Part shown: positions 37,472 to 51,387 of the stretch, piece after piece
How the letters are laid out: the number at the start of each line of letters is the position of its first letter
How positions within the stretch are numbered: the first letter of the stretch is position 1
Source: an uncultured Spartobacteria bacterium
GTDB taxonomy: Bacteria > Verrucomicrobiota > Verrucomicrobiia > Chthoniobacterales > Chthoniobacteraceae
Length of the DNA: 64,000 nt
Direction: 5' to 3'
Assembly (NCBI GenBank): GCA_903901425.1
Contig: CAIURC010000042.1
Span: 1-64,000, forward strand
Program-made: the position numbers and the translations under genes
Notes under the pieces: model-generated
The model's database searches: none
What the model was told of the DNA's origin: nothing
Seen by the model: only the letters and a program-made list of their open reading frames with translations

Positions 37472-38113
37472 ATGCGACACAAACCCTACAGCCTGTTGTC
37501 CGCACTCCTCTGCGCCTTCGCACTCGGCGTCCACTTCAGCCCCGAGGTGCATCGGACCTTTGACGGTCCGGGCCAGAAAAAAGCCCCAGAGACCGTCCTG
37601 CCACCGGCACTCCACGCTCCCAAACCCGGGGCTGTAGAAGTACGCTTCTCGCCAGACGGAGGCTGCACTCAGACCATCGTGTCCGCAATCCGGCAGGCCA
37701 AAACCTCGATCCATCTCCAAGCCTACTCCTTCACCTCCGCCCCCATCGCAGACGCTCTGATCCAAGCACACCAGAAAGGCGTGCAAATTGGCGTGATCTT
37801 GGACAAGAGCCATCGATCCGAACGTTCCTCCGTCGCCCCGCGGCTCCACTCAGCCGGCATCCCACTCTGGATCGATCCGCGCCACGCCATCGCTCACAAT
37901 AAGGTGATTGTCGTGGACCGCGAACGCGTCCTGACCGGTTCATTCAACTTCACCAAGGCCGCTGAGGGCTCCAACGCTGAAAACCTCCTCTCCATCCGCG
38001 ACCCTGCCCTCGCCTCTCTCTACGTGCAAAACTGGGAAACTCATCAAAGCCACTCCTCCCCCTTTATCCCGGAACAGGCTCCGATGAACCAACTCCCCGC
38101 TGAACTGCGCTGA
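37472..38113 (+). CDS. Secreted single-HKD phospholipase D-family protein
   Basis: 213 residues from ATG 37472. Signal-like hydrophobic N-terminus (about 6-20). The body is one PLD unit: SAIRQAKTSIHLQAYSFTS and GVQIGVILDKSHR, then the HKD motif (HNKVIVVDRERVLTGSFNFT) followed by AEGSNAENLL. Single-HKD proteins of this size are Nuc/BfiL-like nucleases or phosphodiesterases that work as dimers. The likely role is periplasmic or extracellular DNA or phospholipid hydrolysis. Its last 50 bases overlap the converging capD-like gene. Confidence 0.88.
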   Translation: MRHKPYSLLSALLCAFALGVHFSPEVHRTFDGPGQKKAPETVLPPALHAPKPGAVEVRFSPDGGCTQTIVSAIRQAKTSIHLQAYSFTSAPIADALIQAHQKGVQIGVILDKSHRSERSSVAPRLHSAGIPLWIDPRHAIAHNKVIVVDRERVLTGSFNFTKAAEGSNAENLLSIRDPALASLYVQNWETHQSHSSPFIPEQAPMNQLPAELR

Positions 38114-40085
38114 TCCCGGCATCCTTTGCCACCAAGTTGCCTGGACCTGAAAAGACACCGTTTCCCCCCATCATCCCCCCCGCGCCCCCCTTTCCTGGCC
38201 GGTATTCTGGCACCAACCTCGCGAGCAAACGCTTCAACTCCTCCTTCGCCACACCGCGCACCGCCGCACCGAGCAACTTTTCCAACTCCTGCACCCCGTT
38301 GATCCCCTCCGAGATCCCAGGCCAGACCCGGTTCCCAAACACCTTCATCCTAAAAATCTTGGGGTGATCGGTCGTTTCCACCTCCTCGTCCCCCTGGCTT
38401 AACTCCTCGTAGAGCTTCTCCCCAGGCCGCAACCCGGTAAACACAATCTGCACATCCTCCCCGGGACGGAGCCCGCTCAGTTCCACCATCTGCCGGGCAA
38501 GATCCGCAATCCGCACCGGCTGGCCCATGTCCAAAACAAAGGTCTCTCCCCCCTCAGCCCGGGACGCGCTCTGGAGAATCAAACTCACCGCCTCCGGGAT
38601 CGTCATGAAATACCGGGTCACCTCGGGGTGCGTGACCGTCACCGGCCCCCCGGCGGCAATCTGTCGCGCAAACGTCGGCACCACGCTCCCAGAAGAACCC
38701 AGCACATTCCCGAACCGCACCACCGCAAACCGCGTCCCTCCCACGACCGAAGCTTGGATCGCTTGGACCATGCATTCCGCCAAGCGCTTGGTTGCGCCCA
38801 TCACATTCGTCGGATTGACCGCCTTGTCCGTTGAAACAAACACAAACCGCACCACCCCGCTCTTCACCGCCATCCGCGCAAGAGCCGAGGTGCCCAACAC
38901 ATTGTTCCGGATCGCTTCCCCAGGCTGCGATTCCATCATCGGAACATGCTTGTGGGCTGCCGCGTGAAAAACCAACTCCGGCCGGCACCCCCCAACCACC
39001 GCCTCCAACCTCCGTTCATCCAACAGGTCCGCCACTAGCGGCTCCACCAGCCCACTGCCACCCGCCCCGCGCAACTCCTGTTCCACGGGAAAAAGCGCGG
39101 CCTCCGACCGGTCCAAAATCAGCAACCGCCTCGGACCAAACCTCAAAATCTGCCGGCAAAGTTCCCCCCCAATACTTCCGCCGGCCCCGGTCACCAAAAC
39201 ACTCGCCCCGGCGATCATCTGCCGCACATTTTCCGTACCCACCTCCACCTGGTCCCGCCCCAAAAGATCCTCAATCTGAACCGGCCGGATCTGAGACAAA
39301 CTCACGCGGCCCAGCGCCATCTGCATCATGGACGGAATGGTCCGGAACGGGAGGCCGCTGCGCCGGACCAGATCGACCACCTGGCGCATCCGCGCCCCAG
39401 AGACAGTCGGCAGCGCCAATACCACCTCGTCCAACCGCCCCGCAACCCCAGGTTCCAACAATGCCTCCGGCGCTCCTAAAACCGCAATCCCATGCACCCT
39501 CGTGCCGCGCCTCCGGTGATCGTCAAAAAATGCTGCCGGCCGGAGCCCCAGCCACCCCTTGGCCAACAACTCGCGCGCCAGCGCCGTACCCGTGTCTCCC
39601 GCCCCAACAATCCCCACCCGGCGCGCGCGCACCGCCGGCCGATGCTGCGGGGTCAGGTATCGCTCCCGGAAAAACCGGATCCCCAGCCGGGCACCGCACA
39701 ACCAGGCGCAGGAAACCACCCCCTCCATCAGGCAGAGCCCCACCGGGGGAAAAACCGGCCCCAGAGACAGCAGGCGCCCGGCCACCAGAAACCCGGTAAA
39801 AACCGCGCACACCCCCAGTACCCGCCTCAAATCCGGGGTGCTGAAGTAACTAAGCGAGTCCTCAAACTGACCGAACCCGTACAGCAGCCCCAGCTTCAAA
39901 ACCACCGCCCCGGACACCACCCCCCAACCCATGCTCCACCCCGCCGAAACCGCCGCAAAATCGGTCAGCAACCGACGGCACAGCCACAGGCCAAACACCG
40001 CACACCCGGCATACACCAAGGCCAGAATCAGAAACCGGACCGGAACCCGGTTTGCAAGCGTCCAGTACAAACGTCTCATTTCCAT
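38064..40085 (-). CDS. CapD/PglF-type nucleotide-sugar 4,6-dehydratase
   Basis: 673 residues from ATG 40085, which has AAGGAGG six bases upstream. Four N-terminal membrane segments (about 10-140) precede a first Rossmann domain (RVGIVGAGDTGTALAREL) and the polysaccharide-biosynthesis SDR domain: VTGAGGSIGGELCRQIL, HAAAHKHVPMMESQP, STDKAVNPTNVMGATKR. Met replaces the SDR Tyr, as is normal for the PglF/WbpM/CapD group. It converts UDP-GlcNAc to the 4-keto-6-deoxy sugar. Last gene of the glycan cluster, coupled to the aminotransferase by a 10-base overlap. Gly-rich C-terminal tail. Confidence 0.92.
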   Translation of the reverse strand: MEMRRLYWTLANRVPVRFLILALVYAGCAVFGLWLCRRLLTDFAAVSAGWSMGWGVVSGAVVLKLGLLYGFGQFEDSLSYFSTPDLRRVLGVCAVFTGFLVAGRLLSLGPVFPPVGLCLMEGVVSCAWLCGARLGIRFFRERYLTPQHRPAVRARRVGIVGAGDTGTALARELLAKGWLGLRPAAFFDDHRRRGTRVHGIAVLGAPEALLEPGVAGRLDEVVLALPTVSGARMRQVVDLVRRSGLPFRTIPSMMQMALGRVSLSQIRPVQIEDLLGRDQVEVGTENVRQMIAGASVLVTGAGGSIGGELCRQILRFGPRRLLILDRSEAALFPVEQELRGAGGSGLVEPLVADLLDERRLEAVVGGCRPELVFHAAAHKHVPMMESQPGEAIRNNVLGTSALARMAVKSGVVRFVFVSTDKAVNPTNVMGATKRLAECMVQAIQASVVGGTRFAVVRFGNVLGSSGSVVPTFARQIAAGGPVTVTHPEVTRYFMTIPEAVSLILQSASRAEGGETFVLDMGQPVRIADLARQMVELSGLRPGEDVQIVFTGLRPGEKLYEELSQGDEEVETTDHPKIFRMKVFGNRVWPGISEGINGVQELEKLLGAAVRGVAKEELKRLLARLVPEYRPGKGGAGGMMGGNGVFSGPGNLVAKDAGISAVQRGVGSSEPVPG

Positions 40086-41221
40086 TTCCCGCCTCCTTCC
40101 ACCACTTCCCGCACCACACTGCAGACCCGTTCCACCTCCGACTCCCCAAGAGCCGAACCGCTCGGAAGACACAGACCCCGCTCAAAACACGCCTCCGCGC
40201 GACCCCCGCCAAAAACCCGGCACCCAGCAAAACTCTGCTGAAGATGCAGGGGCTTCCAGCAAGGCCGACTCTCAATGTCCGCCTCTTCAAGGGCCGAGCG
40301 GAGATCTTCGCGCGTCACTCCGCAGGTCTCGGGATCCACCAGCACACAGGTCATCCAGCAACTGGATTCGTGCCCGGCCAACCCCTTGAAAAACCGGAGC
40401 CCGGGCACGCCTGACAACCCGCGTTCATACCATCCCCGGACCCTGCGTCGGGCAGCCACCCTTTCCCAAAGGACTCCCAACTGGGCCCGGCCCACCGCAG
40501 CCAGAAGATTGCTCATCCGGTAGTTGTAGCCCACCTCCATATGCTCGTAGTGGGGAGCCGGCATTCTGGCCTGCGCTGCAAGGTAGCGGGCCCGGGCTGC
40601 CTCCCCGGCACTGCCGCACAGGAGCATCCCGCCACCGGAAGTCGTCAGCATCTTGTTTCCATTGAACGAGAGAACCCCCAGAGCGCCAAACCCGCCGGCA
40701 CACCGGCCCCGGATTCCCGCCCCCAACGCCTCCGCCGCGTCCTCCAGAACAGGAACCCCCCACCGCGCGCAGACCGGTAAAATCCGGTCGTAGTCAGCGC
40801 AGTCCCCGTACAGATCGACCACAACCACCGCCCGCGGCAAACGACCACAGTGGCCCGCCTCCTCCAAGGCCTGCTCCAGCAGCTCCGGATCCATCCCCCA
40901 TCCACCTTCCATGCTGTCCAGAAACACTGGCTCCGCCCCAAGATACCGGATCGGATTTGCACTGGCTGCAAACGTCAGCGTGGAACACCAGACCTCGTCG
41001 CCAGGCCGGACCCCAAGCAGCGTCAGCCCCAGGTGGATCGCAGCTGTCCCAGAACTGACCGCCACGGCCTCTTGAACCCCCAACTCCGCAGCCATCTCCC
41101 GCTCGAACGCGTCCACCTGAGGCCCCAAAGGCGCCACCCAGTTTGATTCCAGAGCTTCAAGCACATTGGCTGCCTCGCGCCCGCTCAAGTGCGGCGGCGA
41201 AAGAAGAATCCGTTGACTCAT
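40076..41221 (-). CDS. DegT/DnrJ/EryC1/StrS sugar aminotransferase (PglE-like)
   Basis: 381 residues from ATG 41221, with GGAGG upstream and a 4-base overlap with the preceding stop. PLP-dependent fold-I motifs are 'AVSSGTAAIHLGLTLLG', LEDAAEALGAG, and the Schiff-base lysine in FNGNKMLTTSGGGML. The C-terminus has RPCWKPLHLQ. The FNGNK...TTSGGG form is that of PglE-like enzymes that aminate UDP-4-keto-6-deoxy-GlcNAc. With the adjacent PglF-like dehydratase it should yield a UDP-4-amino-4,6-dideoxy sugar. Confidence 0.92.
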   Translation of the reverse strand: MSQRILLSPPHLSGREAANVLEALESNWVAPLGPQVDAFEREMAAELGVQEAVAVSSGTAAIHLGLTLLGVRPGDEVWCSTLTFAASANPIRYLGAEPVFLDSMEGGWGMDPELLEQALEEAGHCGRLPRAVVVVDLYGDCADYDRILPVCARWGVPVLEDAAEALGAGIRGRCAGGFGALGVLSFNGNKMLTTSGGGMLLCGSAGEAARARYLAAQARMPAPHYEHMEVGYNYRMSNLLAAVGRAQLGVLWERVAARRRVRGWYERGLSGVPGLRFFKGLAGHESSCWMTCVLVDPETCGVTREDLRSALEEADIESRPCWKPLHLQQSFAGCRVFGGGRAEACFERGLCLPSGSALGESEVERVCSVVREVVEGGGKWK

Positions 41222-42354
41222 GGCTCCCTCCCCTCCCGCAGCCCGGCCCCGATTTCCACCGGACTCCGGTACCAGGGGAAAAACCCGCGCCTCGCCACCT
41301 CCCAGCCGCCCCGCTCCCATTCGGCCGCCGCTTGGCGACAGCATTGCCCGTAAACGACTCCATCCAACACCCAACTCCAGCAACTCATGGGAAACCGGCA
41401 TGGCGAAAAGCCCGCCTTGAACTCAAAAAGCGAATCCTCACTTCCCACGCCACCGCCCAGGTGCAGATAACGCCACCCCCGCCTCCTGCCCCACCTCCAT
41501 GCCGCATCCAGAAGCTTTTTCATGGGTGAAAGCCCCACCCAAGCATCCCGGGTCCCGCTCAGGTAATACTCGCCAATTCCACTTCCCTCGCCAAAAAGCG
41601 CTCCCCCGACGACCTCTCCATAAGCCCCTCCCAAGCGCACCAGCCAAAGGTGCATCCATTCCCCATGCGCAGCAAACAGCTCTCGAAAAAACTCTTCCCC
41701 GTGCAGATAACTGCCCCCCGCTCCCACGCGAGCCATGGTTTCCCCATAAGCCAGCGCAAAATCTCCGAATCCCCGAAGCGGCTCCTCGATCCCACACCAT
41801 AACCCGGTCTCTTCAAGACGCCGAATCCCTCGCCGGTGCGAAGGCCGGATCCCGGCCCAAACCTCCGATTCTTCCCCGGAAAGATCCATGGCTACGGTCC
41901 TTCCCAGCGTTCGCAACTCGCCCACCCCCTCCAACCATCGCGCCTGACCCAGAACCGGGTTGAGCAGGCTGAACACCGTCAAAACCCCCTCCTCCCTCAA
42001 CCATTCCTCGAGCGCCCCCAGAGCCCTGCCCGGAAAACCCCGCCCCTCACCGGTGATCCAGGGGCCCGGATACCCGCGCACCGATGTGGCGTCCCAACGC
42101 CAGTGCCCCACCGGAAACGGGAGATTCCGCAGCAGGCAGGGCAACCCGAAACTCGAGTCACCGTCCCGCAGCACATACAGCCTGGCAATGCCCTCCCCGC
42201 GTCCCTGCGCAAGCCCGTGAAACTCTGGTCCCTGGTAAAAATCGTGCATCCCAGATCCCTGAAGCCATTCCCGCCACTCCCGACGGTCCTCCCTTCCAAA
42301 CGCGAACAATTCAATCCCCCGGAAACTACCAACCCTGCCCGTTTTCAACCGCAT
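41218..42354 (-). CDS. FemAB/GNAT-fold acyltransferase-like protein
   Basis: 378 residues from ATG 42354, chosen over ATG 42408 because GGGGAGG lies six bases upstream. Two-lobed arrangement of FemAB/BioF2-like (Acetyltransf_6) proteins: N-terminal lobe with FYQGPEFHGLAQG and 'SFGLPCLLRNLPFPVG'; central 'WAGIRPSHRRGIRRLEETGL' equivalent to the Kxx(R/N)K-type segment; C-terminal lobe with GGALFGEGSGIGEYYLSGT and 'LSPMKKLLDAAWRWGRRRGWRYLHLGG'. Such proteins transfer aminoacyl or acyl groups. Related ones accompany exopolysaccharide/PEP-CTERM clusters. It might acylate the amino sugar or a glycan, but the donor is unknown. Confidence 0.78.
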   Translation of the reverse strand: MRLKTGRVGSFRGIELFAFGREDRREWREWLQGSGMHDFYQGPEFHGLAQGRGEGIARLYVLRDGDSSFGLPCLLRNLPFPVGHWRWDATSVRGYPGPWITGEGRGFPGRALGALEEWLREEGVLTVFSLLNPVLGQARWLEGVGELRTLGRTVAMDLSGEESEVWAGIRPSHRRGIRRLEETGLWCGIEEPLRGFGDFALAYGETMARVGAGGSYLHGEEFFRELFAAHGEWMHLWLVRLGGAYGEVVGGALFGEGSGIGEYYLSGTRDAWVGLSPMKKLLDAAWRWGRRRGWRYLHLGGGVGSEDSLFEFKAGFSPCRFPMSCWSWVLDGVVYGQCCRQAAAEWERGGWEVARRGFFPWYRSPVEIGAGLREGREP

Positions 42355-42411
42355 CCTCGCACCTCCCCTTTTTTCACCCCGTCTCACCAGTCTCGCACCC
42401 CACTCCATGGC

Positions 42412-43479
42412 TCACCGCAGAGCACATCCCACAGTTTGGTCGGGACCGGGCACCCAGCCTGCCCGAACCGTCCCCACGGGCCTGCGGAGTCCCACCAACC
42501 GGTCACACTTGGCCGCACGCATTCCCGGCTGCGGCCTCAGCCAGAGCGGATCCACCTCCCGCTGCTCAACCAACGCCAAATAAAACGCGGGCAGATCCGC
42601 CCCGGCCACATGCACAAAAGGGTACCCTCCTCCAAACCGCGGGTTGAGCTCCAAGATCCGGCACCTGCCGCCATCCAAAAAAACGTCGCAGTCCAGAAGC
42701 CCGCCATGCCGCAGGCTCGCCCCCAGCCGGTTCCCGAGCCGCTCCAACCCCTCCTCTCGAACCACCTCCGCACGTTCTGTTTCCCCGGCACGCATCCTGT
42801 CTTTCCTCCGCACAAAGGTCGCCCACTGCCCGCCCTCCAAATCCTGCACCACGTCCAGACCGTGTTCGACCCCCTCGAGCTTTTCCTGGATCACCAGCGG
42901 CATCGCATCCGCCGGATGTCCCCGGCGCCTCCTCACCCGGTGCACCCCCAGCGCAAAAGCCTGCTCGAGCTCCGCCTGGTCCTCCACCTGCTCCACCCCC
43001 TCCGATCCCGAACCCCACCGCGGCTTGAGCACCAGCGGAAAATTCAGGCGCCCCGCACGCACCGCCTCCCGCACCGACCCGGGCTCCAAAAAGGTCTGCG
43101 GCCCGTCCAGCCCGTTTCCCGCCAGAAACAGGGCCGTCTTCCACTTGTCGTAACAGATGTCCACCACCTCGGGAGATGAAACCAAAACCACCACACCCGC
43201 CTGAGCAAAACGCTCCCGCGCCGAGGCCAGAACCGGCAACTCCAGGTCATTGAGGGGCACCACAAAACCCACCTCCCGATCCCGGCACACCTCGAGGAGC
43301 TCATCCACATACCCAGAATCACTCACCGGCGGAACCCGGAACCCCTCCGCCGCCTCCTGCAATGCGGGCGCGTCCCCCCTGCAATCCGCCGCATAAACTC
43401 GGCCCCGGGTTCCCAGCGCCGAAACAAACGCCCCCAACAAATAATTCCGCCTTCCAGCCGATGTTAACAAAACATTCAT
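42412..43479 (-). CDS. ATP-grasp carboxylate-amine ligase-like protein
   Basis: 355 residues from ATG 43479, with AGGAGGGAG upstream and a 4-base overlap with the decarboxylase stop. N-terminal pre-ATP-grasp domain (MNVLLTSAGRRNYLLGAF, PLNDLELPVLA). The ATP-grasp core has FPLVLKPRWGSGSEGV, VIQEKLEGVEHGLDVV, and the metal-binding 'CRILELNPRFGGGYPFVH'. Family knowledge: such enzymes activate a carboxylate as acyl phosphate and join it to an amine or amino acid. In glycan clusters they modify uronic acids or sugars. Partner amine may come from the adjacent decarboxylase (inference). Confidence 0.85.
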   Translation of the reverse strand: MNVLLTSAGRRNYLLGAFVSALGTRGRVYAADCRGDAPALQEAAEGFRVPPVSDSGYVDELLEVCRDREVGFVVPLNDLELPVLASARERFAQAGVVVLVSSPEVVDICYDKWKTALFLAGNGLDGPQTFLEPGSVREAVRAGRLNFPLVLKPRWGSGSEGVEQVEDQAELEQAFALGVHRVRRRRGHPADAMPLVIQEKLEGVEHGLDVVQDLEGGQWATFVRRKDRMRAGETERAEVVREEGLERLGNRLGASLRHGGLLDCDVFLDGGRCRILELNPRFGGGYPFVHVAGADLPAFYLALVEQREVDPLWLRPQPGMRAAKCDRLVGLRRPVGTVRAGWVPGPDQTVGCALR

Positions 43480-44831
43480 GCGTTCTCCCTCCTGTCTCCC
43501 AATCCCGCCCCGCCCAATCCGGGCCGGACCCCAAACATCTCCCACCACTCCTGCCGCCCCCGCGCCACGTTCAAATGACCGTCCCCATCCCGGACCAGCA
43601 CCGCCGGCGCCGGCTGGATGAAGGGCGGCTTCAAAACCAGGGTGTACGCGCCCACCTGACCGAACACCGCAAAGTCCCCGGGTTCCACCGGCCCCGCAAC
43701 GCCCCGCACCAGACAGTCGTCCTCCATGCACGTGTAGCCAACCAGATCCGTGCCGCCCGCCTCAGGACTCTCGCAAGGACGCCCGGATCTGCTCCCCGTT
43801 TCGGCCCCCGTTTCGGCCCCCGTTTCGGCCCCCGTTTCGGCCCCCGTTTCGGCCCCCAACCTGCCCCCCAGCACCTCCACGGGAAGCGGCCTGCCATGCC
43901 GCGTCGGCTTAAGGCTGTGCACGCTCCCTGCCGTCACCGCCACCCGGCGTCCCCCCATCTGCTTGCAGTCCAGCACCCGGGCAACCAGCCACATCGCATC
44001 CGATACCAAGGCCGTGCCGGGCTCCAAGACCAGTTCCGGTCCACCCAAGGGATACTGCTCCGCCACCAAACGGCCCACCTGCTCGCCGTACTCCTCAAAA
44101 TCCGACACGGTTTCCAGGAACCCCGAGCGGACTGAAGCCGGCATCGGACTGTAAAACCCTCCGCCAACGTCGATCCGGACCGGACCCGCCTTCCCGAAGT
44201 GACGCCGGCAAAATCCCAGAATGCGCTCCGTTCTCCAGGCATGCGCACCTGCGGAACGATCCCCCCATGAGGAGTGGACATGGACCGCCTCCAACTCCGC
44301 CCCGCAGTTGCGGATCCGCCCAACCACCGAGGCCGCACCATCCCCCCATTCCTCCGGGTCCAACCACGGAAAACCAAACCGGCCTGAACTCGTTCCAAGC
44401 CGGAGTCCAACCCGCAGACAGGCGTCCGGAAACTGCGCAGCCAGGCGCTCCAGCATCCTCACCTCCCTTTCCCCGTCGAGGTTTACCTGCGCGCCCTCCA
44501 GGAGCGCCGCCTCAAACTCGTCCTCGGACTTGCAGGGCCCGTTGAAAATAATCCGTCCCGCACGCACCCCCAACGACCGCGCCAGGGCGTACTCCGCCCC
44601 TGAAACCACCTCCGCCAAGCCGCCCTCCCTGTCCACCCACTCACACAACACGGGCAGATAGTTGGTCTTGTACGAATAGGCAATCCGGCTCGGCCCATAC
44701 CAGTTCCGAAACGCCCCCTCCAATTTCCGGTAATTCGCGGCAAACCGCCCCAGATCCAGCACATAAAACGCGTCACCACACCGGCGACTGGCCGCATCCA
44801 GTGCCTCCCAATCGATCCCCAGATTGCTCAC
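43476..44831 (-). CDS. Fold-III PLP-dependent decarboxylase (LysA/ornithine decarboxylase-like)
   Basis: 451 residues from GTG 44831, overlapping the previous stop as GTGA. N-terminal barrel with PLP lysine Lys55 (AYSYKTNYLPVL), VVSGAEYALARSLGV, 'AVHVHSSWGDRS', RIDVGGGFYSP and the phosphate-site EPGTALVSDA. C-terminal beta domain with the catalytic GYTCMEDDCLV (C-x3-D). It should decarboxylate a basic amino acid (diaminopimelate, lysine, ornithine or a carboxy-polyamine). A loop just before the CMEDD motif contains a fivefold GAET repeat, which the family lacks. Related decarboxylases are found in exosortase-associated exopolysaccharide clusters. Confidence 0.87.
   Translation of the reverse strand: MSNLGIDWEALDAASRRCGDAFYVLDLGRFAANYRKLEGAFRNWYGPSRIAYSYKTNYLPVLCEWVDREGGLAEVVSGAEYALARSLGVRAGRIIFNGPCKSEDEFEAALLEGAQVNLDGEREVRMLERLAAQFPDACLRVGLRLGTSSGRFGFPWLDPEEWGDGAASVVGRIRNCGAELEAVHVHSSWGDRSAGAHAWRTERILGFCRRHFGKAGPVRIDVGGGFYSPMPASVRSGFLETVSDFEEYGEQVGRLVAEQYPLGGPELVLEPGTALVSDAMWLVARVLDCKQMGGRRVAVTAGSVHSLKPTRHGRPLPVEVLGGRLGAETGAETGAETGAETGAETGSRSGRPCESPEAGGTDLVGYTCMEDDCLVRGVAGPVEPGDFAVFGQVGAYTLVLKPPFIQPAPAVLVRDGDGHLNVARGRQEWWEMFGVRPGLGGAGLGDRRENA
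43795..43854 (-). repeat. 12-bp tandem repeat x5 inside the decarboxylase gene
   Basis: Five perfect copies of CCCGTTTCGGCC (plus strand) in a row. In the gene's frame each unit reads Gly-Ala-Glu-Thr. The unit is a multiple of three, so copy-number change would lengthen or shorten a loop without breaking the frame. Confidence 0.95.
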
Positions 44832-45484
44832 GGCTCGCACCCCCTGTCTTCCAAACCCGCTCCTTGCCTCCTCCCATCCGCAGCAGAACCGAAAAACTCC
44901 GCTCCAGTCGCGCACCCGGGCGAGGTCACCCCGCCCCCGCGAAGAACCACCCCGAGGGTAGCCGCCAGAATCCCCAGGTCGCCCCAGAACGAAAGCCCGT
45001 CCACATAGGCCAGATCCAGCTCAAAGCGCTCGTTCCACCCCAGCGCGTTCCGGCCGTTGACCTGGGCCAACCCCGTCATGCCAGGCCGCACCGCATGCCG
45101 CCGCATCTGGCGCTCGGTGTACAGGGGCAGGTATTTCCAAAGGAGCGGCCGCGGCCCCACCAGGCTCATCTCCCCCCGAAGCACGTTCAAAAGCCCGGGC
45201 AACTCGTCCAGACTCCGCGCGCGTAACCACCGGCCAAATCCGTTCATCCGCTCCTCGTCCTCCAAAACCCTTCCATCCGCCGCACACTCCGGGCCCATGG
45301 TCCGGAACTTCCACAACCCAAACGGCCTTCCGTCCAGCCCGGGACGCATCTGCCGGAACATCACGGGCCTCCCGAGTCGGACCGCCACCCCCAACGCCAC
45401 CAGAGCCATGACCGGCAGCAGCCCCAGCCCCAGACACAGCCCAAGACCCACGTCAAACATCCGTTTTCCTATTCTCCGGTACAC
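44828..45484 (-). CDS. PglC-like initiating phosphosugar (undecaprenyl-phosphate) transferase
   Basis: 218 residues from GTG 45484 (GGGAGG eight bases upstream; overlaps the glycosyltransferase 3' end by 16). The N-terminus YRRIGKRMFDVGLGL plus a re-entrant hydrophobic helix is typical of monotopic PglC enzymes. FRQMRPGLDGRPFGLWKFRTM, the catalytic Asp-Glu dyad in RSLDELPGLLNVLRG and MSLVGPRPLL follow. It loads a UDP-sugar (probably a diamino sugar here) onto undecaprenyl phosphate at the inner membrane, starting glycan assembly. The C-terminal ~35 residues after 'LRGGGVTSPG' are unique and probably disordered. Confidence 0.93.
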   Translation of the reverse strand: MYRRIGKRMFDVGLGLCLGLGLLPVMALVALGVAVRLGRPVMFRQMRPGLDGRPFGLWKFRTMGPECAADGRVLEDEERMNGFGRWLRARSLDELPGLLNVLRGEMSLVGPRPLLWKYLPLYTERQMRRHAVRPGMTGLAQVNGRNALGWNERFELDLAYVDGLSFWGDLGILAATLGVVLRGGGVTSPGCATGAEFFGSAADGRRQGAGLEDRGCEP

Positions 45485-46743
45485 GCGCCGTTCCTCCCGT
45501 AAAACTCCAGCTGCTTCCTCACATACCGCGCCCGGCTCAGCCGTCCGCGTCCCTCCAAAGCCCCTGCCGCATACCGCCGCCTCAGTCCAGGATCCCGGCA
45601 CCACACCCGCATCCGGCCAGCCATTGGCTCCCACGATCCGTTGGCCTCCAGCAACTCCCCGTCCACACCGTCCCGGACCACCTCCCGGCATCCGCGCACC
45701 CTCCACGCCAGCACCGGCACCCCCATGGCCAACGCCTCCATGACGCTCACAGGCACCCCCTCCCGACGGCTTGGAAAAACCAGTGCGTCCATCAACGCCA
45801 GAACCGGCGCCATGTCTTCCAACTCCCCCGCACGGATCACCCCGGGATGCGCCCAAAACCGGCTACGTTCCTCCTCTCCGAGGCCGTCTGGATGCAGCGC
45901 ATCCGGCCCGCCCACAACCAGCAACCGCGCCTCCCCACATTCCCGCGCCACGTCCATGAACGCGCGGGCCAGACACCCAAACCCCTTAAAACCCGTCCAG
46001 CGCCCCACAAACCCGAAAACGCATCCCCCGTTCAACCCCCAGCGGCTTCGCATCCGCTCCACCTCCAGACCCGCCATGCTCCCCCGATCGAACCGCGCCA
46101 AGTCGCATCCCAGCCCCGCAGAATCCAACACGTCCACCCGGCGTCCCCCCAAGTCCCGGCTGAGAATCCGCCTGTCGTCCTCGGTCAAAACCAGCACCCG
46201 GTCCATCCGCGCCGCGGCACCGCACTCCGCAATCCGCAGCACCCAACGCATCCCTCCCCCGCGCAACGGGTACCCCAAACCGTGGAAGGTTCCAAAGACC
46301 GGGGGCCAACCCACCCGCTTCGCCAGCGCCACACACAGAACCGCAGCGGAAAAATGCGCGTGCACCCAGTCCGGGGCCAGCCAGTCCACCAGTTCCCGGA
46401 GCCGGACAGCGGCCCGGACCTGGCCCAGCAGGTTGAGCCCGCGCGGAATCTCCACCCGGTGCCAATGGACCTCGGGCATCCCGCACCCACTGCCCCCCAA
46501 ACCACCCGCCGCACAGTGCACCTCCCACCCCTCGCCTGCCAGTGCCGGAACCAGTTCCCGGAAAAAACACTTGAAACTCTCCCAGCGCGGAATCACCAGC
46601 AGCACCCTGCCACGCCCCTTTCCAGAGCCCTTTCCAGAGCCCTTTCCAGAGCCCTTTCCAGGTTCCATCCCAAGTTCCATCCCAAGTTCCTTTGCATCCC
46701 CAGGGCCCCGGGGTTCCCACCGCATTTTGAGTCCTCCATTCAT
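45469..46743 (-). CDS. GT4-family glycosyltransferase (PglA-like)
   Basis: 424 residues from ATG 46743; ATG 46725 has a better Shine-Dalgarno (GGAGG seven bases upstream) and may be the true start. A GT-B fold begins at about residue 47 (RVLLVIPRWESFKCFFREL). Then come HAHFSAAVLCVALAKR, TFHGLGYPLRGGG, FVGRWTGFKGFGCLARAF and the donor-site FPSRREGVPVSVMEALAMGVPVLAW (E-x7-E). It would add the second sugar to the lipid-linked first sugar. The N-terminal extension carries GKGS and ELGM tandem repeats. First gene of the seven-gene glycan run; 231 bp upstream are gene-free. Confidence 0.92.
   Translation of the reverse strand: MNGGLKMRWEPRGPGDAKELGMELGMEPGKGSGKGSGKGSGKGRGRVLLVIPRWESFKCFFRELVPALAGEGWEVHCAAGGLGGSGCGMPEVHWHRVEIPRGLNLLGQVRAAVRLRELVDWLAPDWVHAHFSAAVLCVALAKRVGWPPVFGTFHGLGYPLRGGGMRWVLRIAECGAAARMDRVLVLTEDDRRILSRDLGGRRVDVLDSAGLGCDLARFDRGSMAGLEVERMRSRWGLNGGCVFGFVGRWTGFKGFGCLARAFMDVARECGEARLLVVGGPDALHPDGLGEEERSRFWAHPGVIRAGELEDMAPVLALMDALVFPSRREGVPVSVMEALAMGVPVLAWRVRGCREVVRDGVDGELLEANGSWEPMAGRMRVWCRDPGLRRRYAAGALEGRGRLSRARYVRKQLEFYGRNGACTGE
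46617..46661 (-). repeat. 12-bp tandem repeat x3.75 in the glycosyltransferase N-terminus
   Basis: CCTTTCCAGAGC repeated three full times plus nine bases of a fourth copy. In frame it encodes Gly-Lys-Gly-Ser units directly before the first beta strand of the GT-B fold. Confidence 0.93.
46663..46690 (-). repeat. 12-bp tandem repeat x2.3 (ELGM unit)
   Basis: TTCCATCCCAAG twice plus TTCC, next to the GKGS array but with a different unit. It encodes Met-Glu-Leu-Gly steps and therefore supplies several alternative ATG codons at the glycosyltransferase N-terminus. Confidence 0.85.
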
Positions 46744-50403: not shown

Positions 50404-51387
50404 GTGAAAACACACGATCCAACCCCCAAGGACTGGAACCCCACCCCTCATGGACCTCATGGACCTCATGGACCTCATGGACCTCATGGACCTCATGGAC
50501 CTCATGGACCTCATGGACCTCATGGACCTCATGAAGCCCCAGCCCCCTCTGAAGTCCATCAAGTCCATCAAGTCCATCAAGTCGATCCCCCCCAACACCT
50601 CGGCCCCGGCCTTGGCCCTGAAGCCCACCGGGACCACCGGGACCACCGGGACCACCGGGACCACTGGCACACCGGATGGCCGGCATTCGAAAACCGCTCC
50701 CAAGCCGGCCGGCAACTGGCCCGGGCTCTGGGCAGGCAACCCGCCGGAACCATCACCCTCGGACTGACCCGGGGCGGAATGCCCGTGGCCGCCGAGGCGG
50801 CACGGCTCCTCGGCACGCCCCTGGACCTCTGCGCCGTCCGGAAAATCGGCTCCCCAAACAACCCCGAGCTGGCCCTCGGCGCCGTGGCCTCCGGAGGAAT
50901 CCGCATTTTCAACACCGATCTGGCAGCCGCACTCGGCGTGAGTCCAACCGGTCTGCAAGACGCCGCACAGGCACAGGAAACTGAACTGGAACGGGTGGAA
51001 ACCGCCTGCCGGGCGGGCTGGCCCAGCCTGGATCTGGTTGGCAAACCCGCTTTGCTCGTGGACGACGGGGTGGCCACCGGAGCCACGCTGCGGGCTGCCG
51101 CCGCCTCTGTCCGGGCCAGGGGCGCCAGCCGCGTCACCATTGCCGCACCTGCCGCACCGGCAGAAGTCCTGCCGGCACTGCGGACCGCCGCGGATGCCGT
51201 GCTGGTCCTGATCACCCCGGAGCCTTTCCTGGGCGTCGGCGCCTGTTACCGGGAGTTCCCCCAGGTCCCCAGCGGCGAGGTGGCACGGCTCCTGGAAGAG
51301 TCCAGAACCGCAGCGCCCGCCTGGACACGGGGCCGATCCCCGGAAAACGCCCGGCCCGCCACCGTTCATTCTCCTGAGGCGCCATGA
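50404..51387 (+). CDS. Phosphoribosyltransferase-fold protein with repeat-built N-terminal tail
   Basis: Up to 327 residues from GTG 50404. The conserved body starts at about residue 97 (FENRSQAGRQLARAL, typically the first residues of this family). It then contains LGLTRGGMPVAAEAARLL, RKIGSPNNPELALGAVASGG, the PRPP loop LVDDGVATGATLRAA and the C-terminal GVGACYREFPQVPSGEV. In frame with it, the ~95 preceding codons contain (HGP)9, (VHQ)3 and (DHR)4 units produced by three 9-bp arrays. No ATG exists in frame before 50777, which lies inside the fold. No Shine-Dalgarno is seen at GTG 50404, so the true start is unresolved. It overlaps the GroEL-like gene as ATGA. Confidence 0.72.
   Translation: MKTHDPTPKDWNPTPHGPHGPHGPHGPHGPHGPHGPHGPHGPHEAPAPSEVHQVHQVHQVDPPQHLGPGLGPEAHRDHRDHRDHRDHWHTGWPAFENRSQAGRQLARALGRQPAGTITLGLTRGGMPVAAEAARLLGTPLDLCAVRKIGSPNNPELALGAVASGGIRIFNTDLAAALGVSPTGLQDAAQAQETELERVETACRAGWPSLDLVGKPALLVDDGVATGATLRAAAASVRARGASRVTIAAPAAPAEVLPALRTAADAVLVLITPEPFLGVGACYREFPQVPSGEVARLLEESRTAAPAWTRGRSPENARPATVHSPEAP
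50447..50527 (+). repeat. 9-bp tandem array A (ctcatggac x9)
   Basis: Nine perfect copies of CTCATGGAC, with a partial tenth. All six reading frames remain open through it: HGP in the phosphoribosyltransferase frame, MDL in the next, RSM/HEV/GPG on the minus strand. Confidence 0.97.
50552..50587 (+). repeat. 9-bp tandem array B (aagtccatc x4)
   Basis: Three perfect copies of AAGTCCATC and a fourth with one change (AAGTCGATC). Its reverse complement GATGGACTT shares the core ATGGAC with array A, so A and B are inverted relatives that could pair in RNA or single-stranded DNA. Confidence 0.95.
50624..50668 (+). repeat. 9-bp tandem array C (accaccggg x5)
   Basis: Five copies of ACCACCGGG; the first has one and the last has two changes. 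The unit is unrelated in sequence to arrays A and B but has the same 9-bp period. It ends 22 bases before the conserved phosphoribosyltransferase domain begins. Confidence 0.95.

Follow-up and report, generated by a model that had tools for sequence, protein, structure and literature searches.

A seven-gene operon in a soil Verrucomicrobia bacterium, with a probable role in making a cell-surface amino-sugar and attaching an amino acid to it

The window, by which is meant the whole stretch of 64,000 nucleotides that was analysed (contig CAIURC010000042.1, positions 1 to 64,000), belongs to the 5.1 Mb draft genome of an uncultured Spartobacteria bacterium of the Chthoniobacteraceae. Seven intact genes occupy positions 38064-46743 on the minus strand, overlapping tightly in the order GT4 - PglC - decarboxylase - ATP-grasp - FemAB-like - PglE-like - PglF-like. 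This is the content, placement and order that the initial annotation had given. With Pfam E-values that range from 9e-9 (Acetyltransf_6, FemAB-like) to 2e-114 (Polysacc_synt_2, PglF-like), the seven genes are not chance open reading frames. At four of the six gene junctions a 4-base ATGA/GTGA overlap is possible, and the remaining two consist of one 16-base overlap and one 57-base gap. The program-listed open reading frames of the cluster are too long at their 5' ends; better starts are proposed below.

45469-46743, minus strand: GT4 glycosyltransferase (Glyco_trans_1_4, E 5e-25); start at 46743 or later, for example 46605.
44828-45484, minus strand: PglC-like monotopic phosphoglycosyl transferase, 218 aa (Bac_transf, E 1.7e-53), with the DE dyad DELPGLLNVLRGEMSLVGPRP; its GTG start overlaps the end of the GT4 gene.
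43476-44840, minus strand: alanine-racemase-fold PLP decarboxylase-like protein, called DC here (Orn_Arg_deC_N, E 6e-17); alternative GTG start at 44831.
42412-43479, minus strand: ATP-grasp ligase of the PRK12767 type, called ATPg here, 355 aa (NF009404; PylC-like_N); ATGA overlap with the DC gene.
41218-42354, minus strand: FemX-like double-GNAT protein, 378 aa, the FemAB-like member of the cluster (Acetyltransf_6; profile match to FemX, E 7e-15; AF2 model).
40076-41221, minus strand: PglE-like DegT aminotransferase, with the PLP lysine in NGNK.
38064-40085, minus strand: PglF-like membrane-anchored NDP-sugar 4,6-dehydratase (Polysacc_synt_2, E 2e-114, and CoA_binding_3); alternative ATGA start at 40079.

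Two of the cluster genes carry in-frame 12-base tandem repeats. Those in the DC gene (43794-43857) are of the ETGA type, in a stretch that is missing from the two closest homologues of DC, and those in the GT4 gene (46616-46690) are of the GKGS type and lie at the N terminus. Elsewhere in the window, positions 50446-50533 form a perfect 9-base tandem array of about ten copies.

Four of the genes appear to encode an ordinary lipid-linked amino-sugar route, in which the roles of the GT4 and PglC-like proteins are read from family membership. The PglF-like protein contains a STDKA...MGATK motif (STDKAVNPTNVMGATKR at 418), GAGGSIG at 300 and a membrane/CoA_binding_3 region; the S-M-K motif is taken here to mark the PglF/WbpM type. 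When the PglE-like DegT protein was compared with the PDB, the top matches were 1o61 (E 3e-83) and 4ztc, presumably both PglE of C. jejuni, ranking above the perosamine synthases. The expected product of such families is a lipid-linked 2-acetamido-4-amino-2,4,6-trideoxy sugar. From the Pfam families, motifs and PDB ranking, the Pgl-type set that had been proposed for this cluster is supported.

The acetyltransferase PglD had been reported as missing, and this is right for the cluster. The single PglD_N protein of the genome is encoded on contig C78 beside genes for a NeuC-like epimerase, a CBS-nucleotidyltransferase, an SDR and a DegT protein, and therefore belongs to a separate nonulosonate-type cluster (L064 7781-13479). 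The reported absence of an exosortase holds within the cluster and fails genome-wide, as a search of the same genome located two on other contigs. Within the window cluster, no gene could be assigned to Wzx, Wzy or an oligosaccharyl transferase.

The DC protein was searched as a profile against the PDB. The best match was N-citrylornithine decarboxylase (PDB: 7kh2), covering the full length with an E-value of 4e-46, followed by the next match at 1e-32. DC keeps the Schiff-base Lys58, Glu273, the glycine loop, the stacking His and Cys371, the last within the sequence C371-M372-E-D-D. In decarboxylases having the alanine-racemase fold, this Cys is the catalytic base, and the acidic residue that follows it in ODC, ADC and DAPDC binds the substrate amino group; N-citrylornithine decarboxylase has Met at that position and, together with its clade, acts on conjugated amino acids (PMC7857480). 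The residue after the Cys is Met in the window and in a homologue from the sister genome G003, Ile in a homologue from Myxococcota (L111), and the LysA rows of the alignment read C-E. The window, G003 and L111 proteins form a clade (100/99) and, by sequence, are a distinct subfamily.

This subfamily departs from its relatives in the EPGR motif, which reads EPGT in the window, EPGA in G003 and EPGM in L111, with Arg in the 19 other aligned rows. In relatives the Arg contacts the PLP phosphate. Since it is replaced, DC is best regarded as a divergent relative and not as a member of the N-citrylornithine decarboxylase family, and with the Arg lost its activity could be altered. An AF2 model of DC, built from two sequences, reached a pLDDT of 47 and no conclusion was drawn from it. 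Two further identities were rejected: LysA/ODC, on the residue beside the Cys and the profile ranking, and the XrtA/PEP-CTERM decarboxylase, the exosortase-linked type that the initial annotation had mentioned, on a TIGR03099 score of 56 bits, far under the cut-off of 478.

The adjoining ATPg matches NF009404 with 366 bits, above the curated cut-off of 316, which places it in the PRK12767 type. The association of decarboxylase and ATP-grasp that had been singled out in this cluster recurs across phyla. The wider DC family was compared with LysA-like controls: 22 of its 23 loci include an ATP-grasp gene within the gene run, mostly directly adjoining and, in Streptomyces, separated by one MFS gene, as against none of the eight control loci. 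Since many of the 23 loci are from one clade, in which the pair is followed by a urea-transporter/M23-type protein, the independent cases amount to about six branches. At the Myxococcota locus L111, the pair is found in the same order with the same ATGA overlap, and the locus also holds PglC-, Wzy- and FemAB-like genes. In Streptomyces, in Nitratidesulfovibrio and in one further genome of the Verrucomicrobiota phylum, the pair is joined by a third gene, of GNAT or FemAB type.

Other settings of these families were encountered. Many Verrucomicrobiota contain a second type of operon with an ATP-grasp gene and a DC-family decarboxylase (L021 9264-14095; L044; L165-L169); in L021 there is also a fusion of urea transporter and M23 peptidase, confirmed by Pfam, with homologues at the other loci by tblastn. 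A stand-alone DC homologue in G003 (L020 11759-14372) is convergent to the gene of an HGSNAT-like membrane acyltransferase, a family that also stands beside ATP-grasp and decarboxylase genes in Nitratidesulfovibrio. There, on plasmid pDVUL01 (L154 5204-10477), HGSNAT-like, ATP-grasp, decarboxylase and FemAB-type genes form a run near a gene annotated as XrtA/PEP-CTERM histidine kinase PrsK. Two Streptomyces plasmids (L155 6383-13067 and L153 6430-13075) carry a run of genes for a 2OG-Fe dioxygenase (PF10014), methyltransferase, decarboxylase, MFS transporter, ATP-grasp and FemAB_like protein that looks like a small-peptide natural-product cluster.

The pairing lends itself to a scheme in which a free amine, such as putrescine or cadaverine, is produced by DC and used afterwards by the ATP-grasp enzyme to amidate a sugar acid. 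The ATGA coupling of the two genes here and in Myxococcota agrees with such a scheme, as does the shared locus at 22 of 23 sites, yet the subfamily has Met or Ile rather than Asp/Glu after the catalytic Cys, the window cluster contains no uronic-acid-forming gene, and the sugar route ends in an amine, so that the sugar would itself be the amine partner. The scheme is doubtful as a result. The polyamine or cadaverine-like product of the initial annotation also meets the Met that DC shares with N-citrylornithine decarboxylase: polyamine chemistry is unlikely because DC is without the acidic residue used by the polyamine-forming enzymes, and its substrate is more plausibly a conjugated amino acid.

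The FemX-like protein was modelled with AF2 to a pLDDT of 94.4 and has a double GNAT fold. Over about 300 residues the model aligns with FemX and FemA at Z-scores of 25-26 (26.4 to FemX, PDB: 6snr), and with the tRNA-dependent Sba18/Sbb17 at a Z-score of 24; the best acetyl-CoA GNAT enzymes score about 14-16. Lys313 aligns with the catalytic Lys305 of FemXWv (PMC12945691) and is Lys in 52/52 homologues. Single open reading frames that combine ATP-grasp and FemX-like domains were found in Chthoniobacter RYN_611, a Chloroflexi MAG and an Alphaproteobacteria MAG. The long FemAB open reading frame of G026, which was considered as another such fusion, was rejected as it carries an NAD_binding_9 match and a FemAB-like domain only.

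A scan of GTDB contigs identified 79 FemAB-like loci in many phyla. PglC-like genes are near 60 of these and DegT genes near 47, and the FemAB-like gene adjoins an aminotransferase gene in many. ATP-grasp genes were detected at 17 of the 79 loci, the three single-frame fusions among them; none was detected at the other 62, so the FemX-like protein presumably also works without an ATP-grasp partner.

It had been suggested that the FemAB-like protein replaces PglD. In its full form, this suggestion makes it an acetyl-CoA N-acetyltransferase whose product is plain diacetamido-bacillosamine, with the ATP-grasp and DC genes unrelated. PglD is indeed missing from the cluster, the Pfam match is to a GNAT model (PF13480), and the position beside an aminotransferase gene is a common one. 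Nevertheless, PglD and the FemAB-like gene occur together within one cluster in two relatives, G020 and G026, and PglD is also present at 8 of the 29 GTDB FemAB loci having DegT and PglF, and as a rule the replacement therefore fails. The whole-length similarity to FemX/FemA, well above that to any acetyl-CoA enzyme, and the invariant equivalent of Lys305 make acetyl transfer improbable, and the fusions identify ATP-grasp as the tight partner of the FemAB-like protein.

Within the Chthoniobacteraceae, the DC gene sits inside the cluster in the window genome only. The cluster is found without it in G003, G001, G020 and G021 and, with changes, in G019 and G026, so that, of the seven family genomes that bear FemAB, six have a cluster lacking DC. 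In the sister genome G003, it is encoded on another contig away from the cluster. In G020 and G021, a flavin oxidoreductase gene lies between ATPg and PglC; G001 has no flavin gene at the cluster and a 59% identical copy elsewhere in the genome. No specific enzyme name could be given to the flavin gene, which returned only generic flavin-monooxygenase-like and pyridine-nucleotide oxidoreductase scores.

Taken by genome, each of the five Chthoniobacteraceae with a close ATPg has one partner, DC in two and the flavin oxidoreductase in three, and never both. The other 35 of the 40 family genomes are without a close ATPg and, at the thresholds used, have neither the DC subfamily nor the flavin gene; some of them carry more distant DC relatives that are urea-transporter-linked or LysA-like. 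Drawn blindly, a 5/5 pattern has p = 1.5e-6, a value that overstates the case because the five genomes share ancestry. In the GTDB set, all five loci with the flavin gene have an ATPg. The ATPg tree divides by partner as well, with the window and the G003 row (DC) on one side and six rows on the other; in five of these six ATPg adjoins the FAD gene, which in the remaining one, G001, is located elsewhere in the genome.

The initial annotation had named absence of the decarboxylase and the ligase from otherwise equal clusters in relatives as the finding that would count against it. The decarboxylase proved to be absent from such clusters and the ligase did not. In view of the either/or partner pattern, which is the unexpected part of the finding, the absence turns out to be informative. 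It can also be read as a sign that the DC gene entered the operon recently as a bystander and contributes nothing to the glycan, consistent with its presence at just one of the 79 GTDB FemAB loci as well as its absence from the six family clusters. Set against this are the nearest homologues of DC, found in G003, whose own copy of the cluster lies on a different contig, and at the FemAB/ATPg locus of Myxococcota; the DC and ATPg trees, which agree in placing L111 outside the window and G003; and the almost constant linkage of the DC family to ATP-grasp. Less probable still than acetyl transfer by the FemX-like protein, a bystander origin is not favoured. An equally slight chance is given to a DC that has turned to another PLP reaction (e.g. 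racemisation) or is inactive, for although the EPGR Arg has become T, A or M in three members and alanine racemase has the same fold (a Streptomyces plasmid encodes one relative with the annotation 'alanine racemase'), the Lys58, Glu273, glycine loop, stacking His and Cys371 are retained, and this Cys is the catalytic base of decarboxylases of the fold.

The preferred reading, to which a probability of roughly 0.5 is given, is that of a surface-glycan operon in which a lipid-linked 4-amino-4,6-dideoxy sugar is decorated on its free amine with an amino acid and then tailored. The chemistry, order of steps, acceptor and product that we infer would be as follows. The PglF-like dehydratase and PglE-like aminotransferase would convert UDP-GlcNAc to UDP-2-acetamido-4-amino-2,4,6-trideoxyglucose, the PglC-like enzyme would transfer the phospho-sugar to undecaprenyl phosphate, and GT4, going by its family, would add the next sugar. 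The FemX-like protein, drawing on aminoacyl-tRNA, and the ATP-grasp ligase, using a free amino acid and ATP, would build one amide bond, or two in succession, on the free 4-amine of the sugar, which may replace or supplement PglD-type acetylation. Linked ligases often form bonds in succession (PMC4431377). The substrate of DC would be either the amino acid itself or, with greater likelihood, the conjugate, the kind of molecule that its closest characterised relatives use, and the product would be a pendant that is decarboxylated and carries an amine; sister species would have a flavin oxidoreductase in this role.

A broader reading is possible and is held tentatively. Here the FemX-like tRNA-dependent transferase and the ATP-grasp enzyme would be parts of a swappable cassette of Gram-negative surface-glycan operons that builds an amino-acyl chain on a bacillosamine-type sugar, with either a DC or a flavin oxidoreductase, never both, as the finishing enzyme. 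The finishing gene may lie outside the operon yet stay in the genome. The either/or pattern behind this reading comes from five genomes of shared ancestry. Overall, what the initial annotation observed is confirmed and its interpretation is supported in part.

The operon may be compared to several known systems. Like the bacillosamine pathway of Campylobacter (PglF, PglE, PglD, PglC), it has a PglF-like dehydratase, a PglE-type aminotransferase and a PglC-like monotopic transferase; unlike that pathway, it is without PglD and an identified oligosaccharyl transferase and adds FemX-like, ATP-grasp and decarboxylase genes. The FemABX aminoacyl-tRNA-dependent transferases, which include Sba18/Sbb17 and Orf11 of streptothricin-type antibiotics, share the double GNAT fold and the Lys305 equivalent, and Orf11 aminoacylates an amino-sugar intermediate. 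In contrast, the window protein is encoded in a lipid-linked glycan operon, is paired or fused with ATP-grasp, and its use of tRNA is putative. N-citrylornithine decarboxylase (FigC/FslC) and its polyamine-unrelated clade (SbnH, AcsE, MccE, BtrK) resemble DC in the best full-length profile match and the Met after the Cys, but in DC the EPGR Arg is replaced and the partner is an ATP-grasp enzyme in a glycan cluster instead of a siderophore synthetase.

In the butirosin side-chain pathway, BtrJ is the ATP-grasp ligase. Its partner BtrK is an alanine-racemase-fold decarboxylase (PMC7857480, PMC2922099), and together they furnish an amino sugar with a decarboxylated amino acid, much as is proposed here. 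The window operon differs in having no acyl carrier protein gene, in serving a surface glycan and not an antibiotic, and in having a FemX-like protein instead of BtrH. The XrtA/PEP-CTERM exopolysaccharide clusters (TIGR03099, FemAB-type) likewise place decarboxylase-like and FemAB-like genes beside sugar genes, and exosortases do occur elsewhere in the genome; however, the window proteins score far under the curated cut-offs and the cluster is without an exosortase. No description of a glycan system with decarboxylase, ATP-grasp and FemAB was found among the open-access papers searched.

A single sugar amine is the common point of the FemX-type transferase, ATP-grasp ligase and tailoring enzyme of this compact operon. 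Amino-acid amides are common on bacterial glycans and, to our knowledge, few of the enzymes responsible for attaching them have been assigned. That decarboxylase and ATP-grasp are linked repeatedly, in several phyla and in many cases alongside a GNAT or FemAB-type gene, suggests a general route to decarboxylated amino-acyl amides. If true, the cassette would represent a tRNA-dependent aminoacylation of bacterial surface polysaccharide, and the either/or partner predicts two chemically different pendants on the otherwise equal glycans of sister species.
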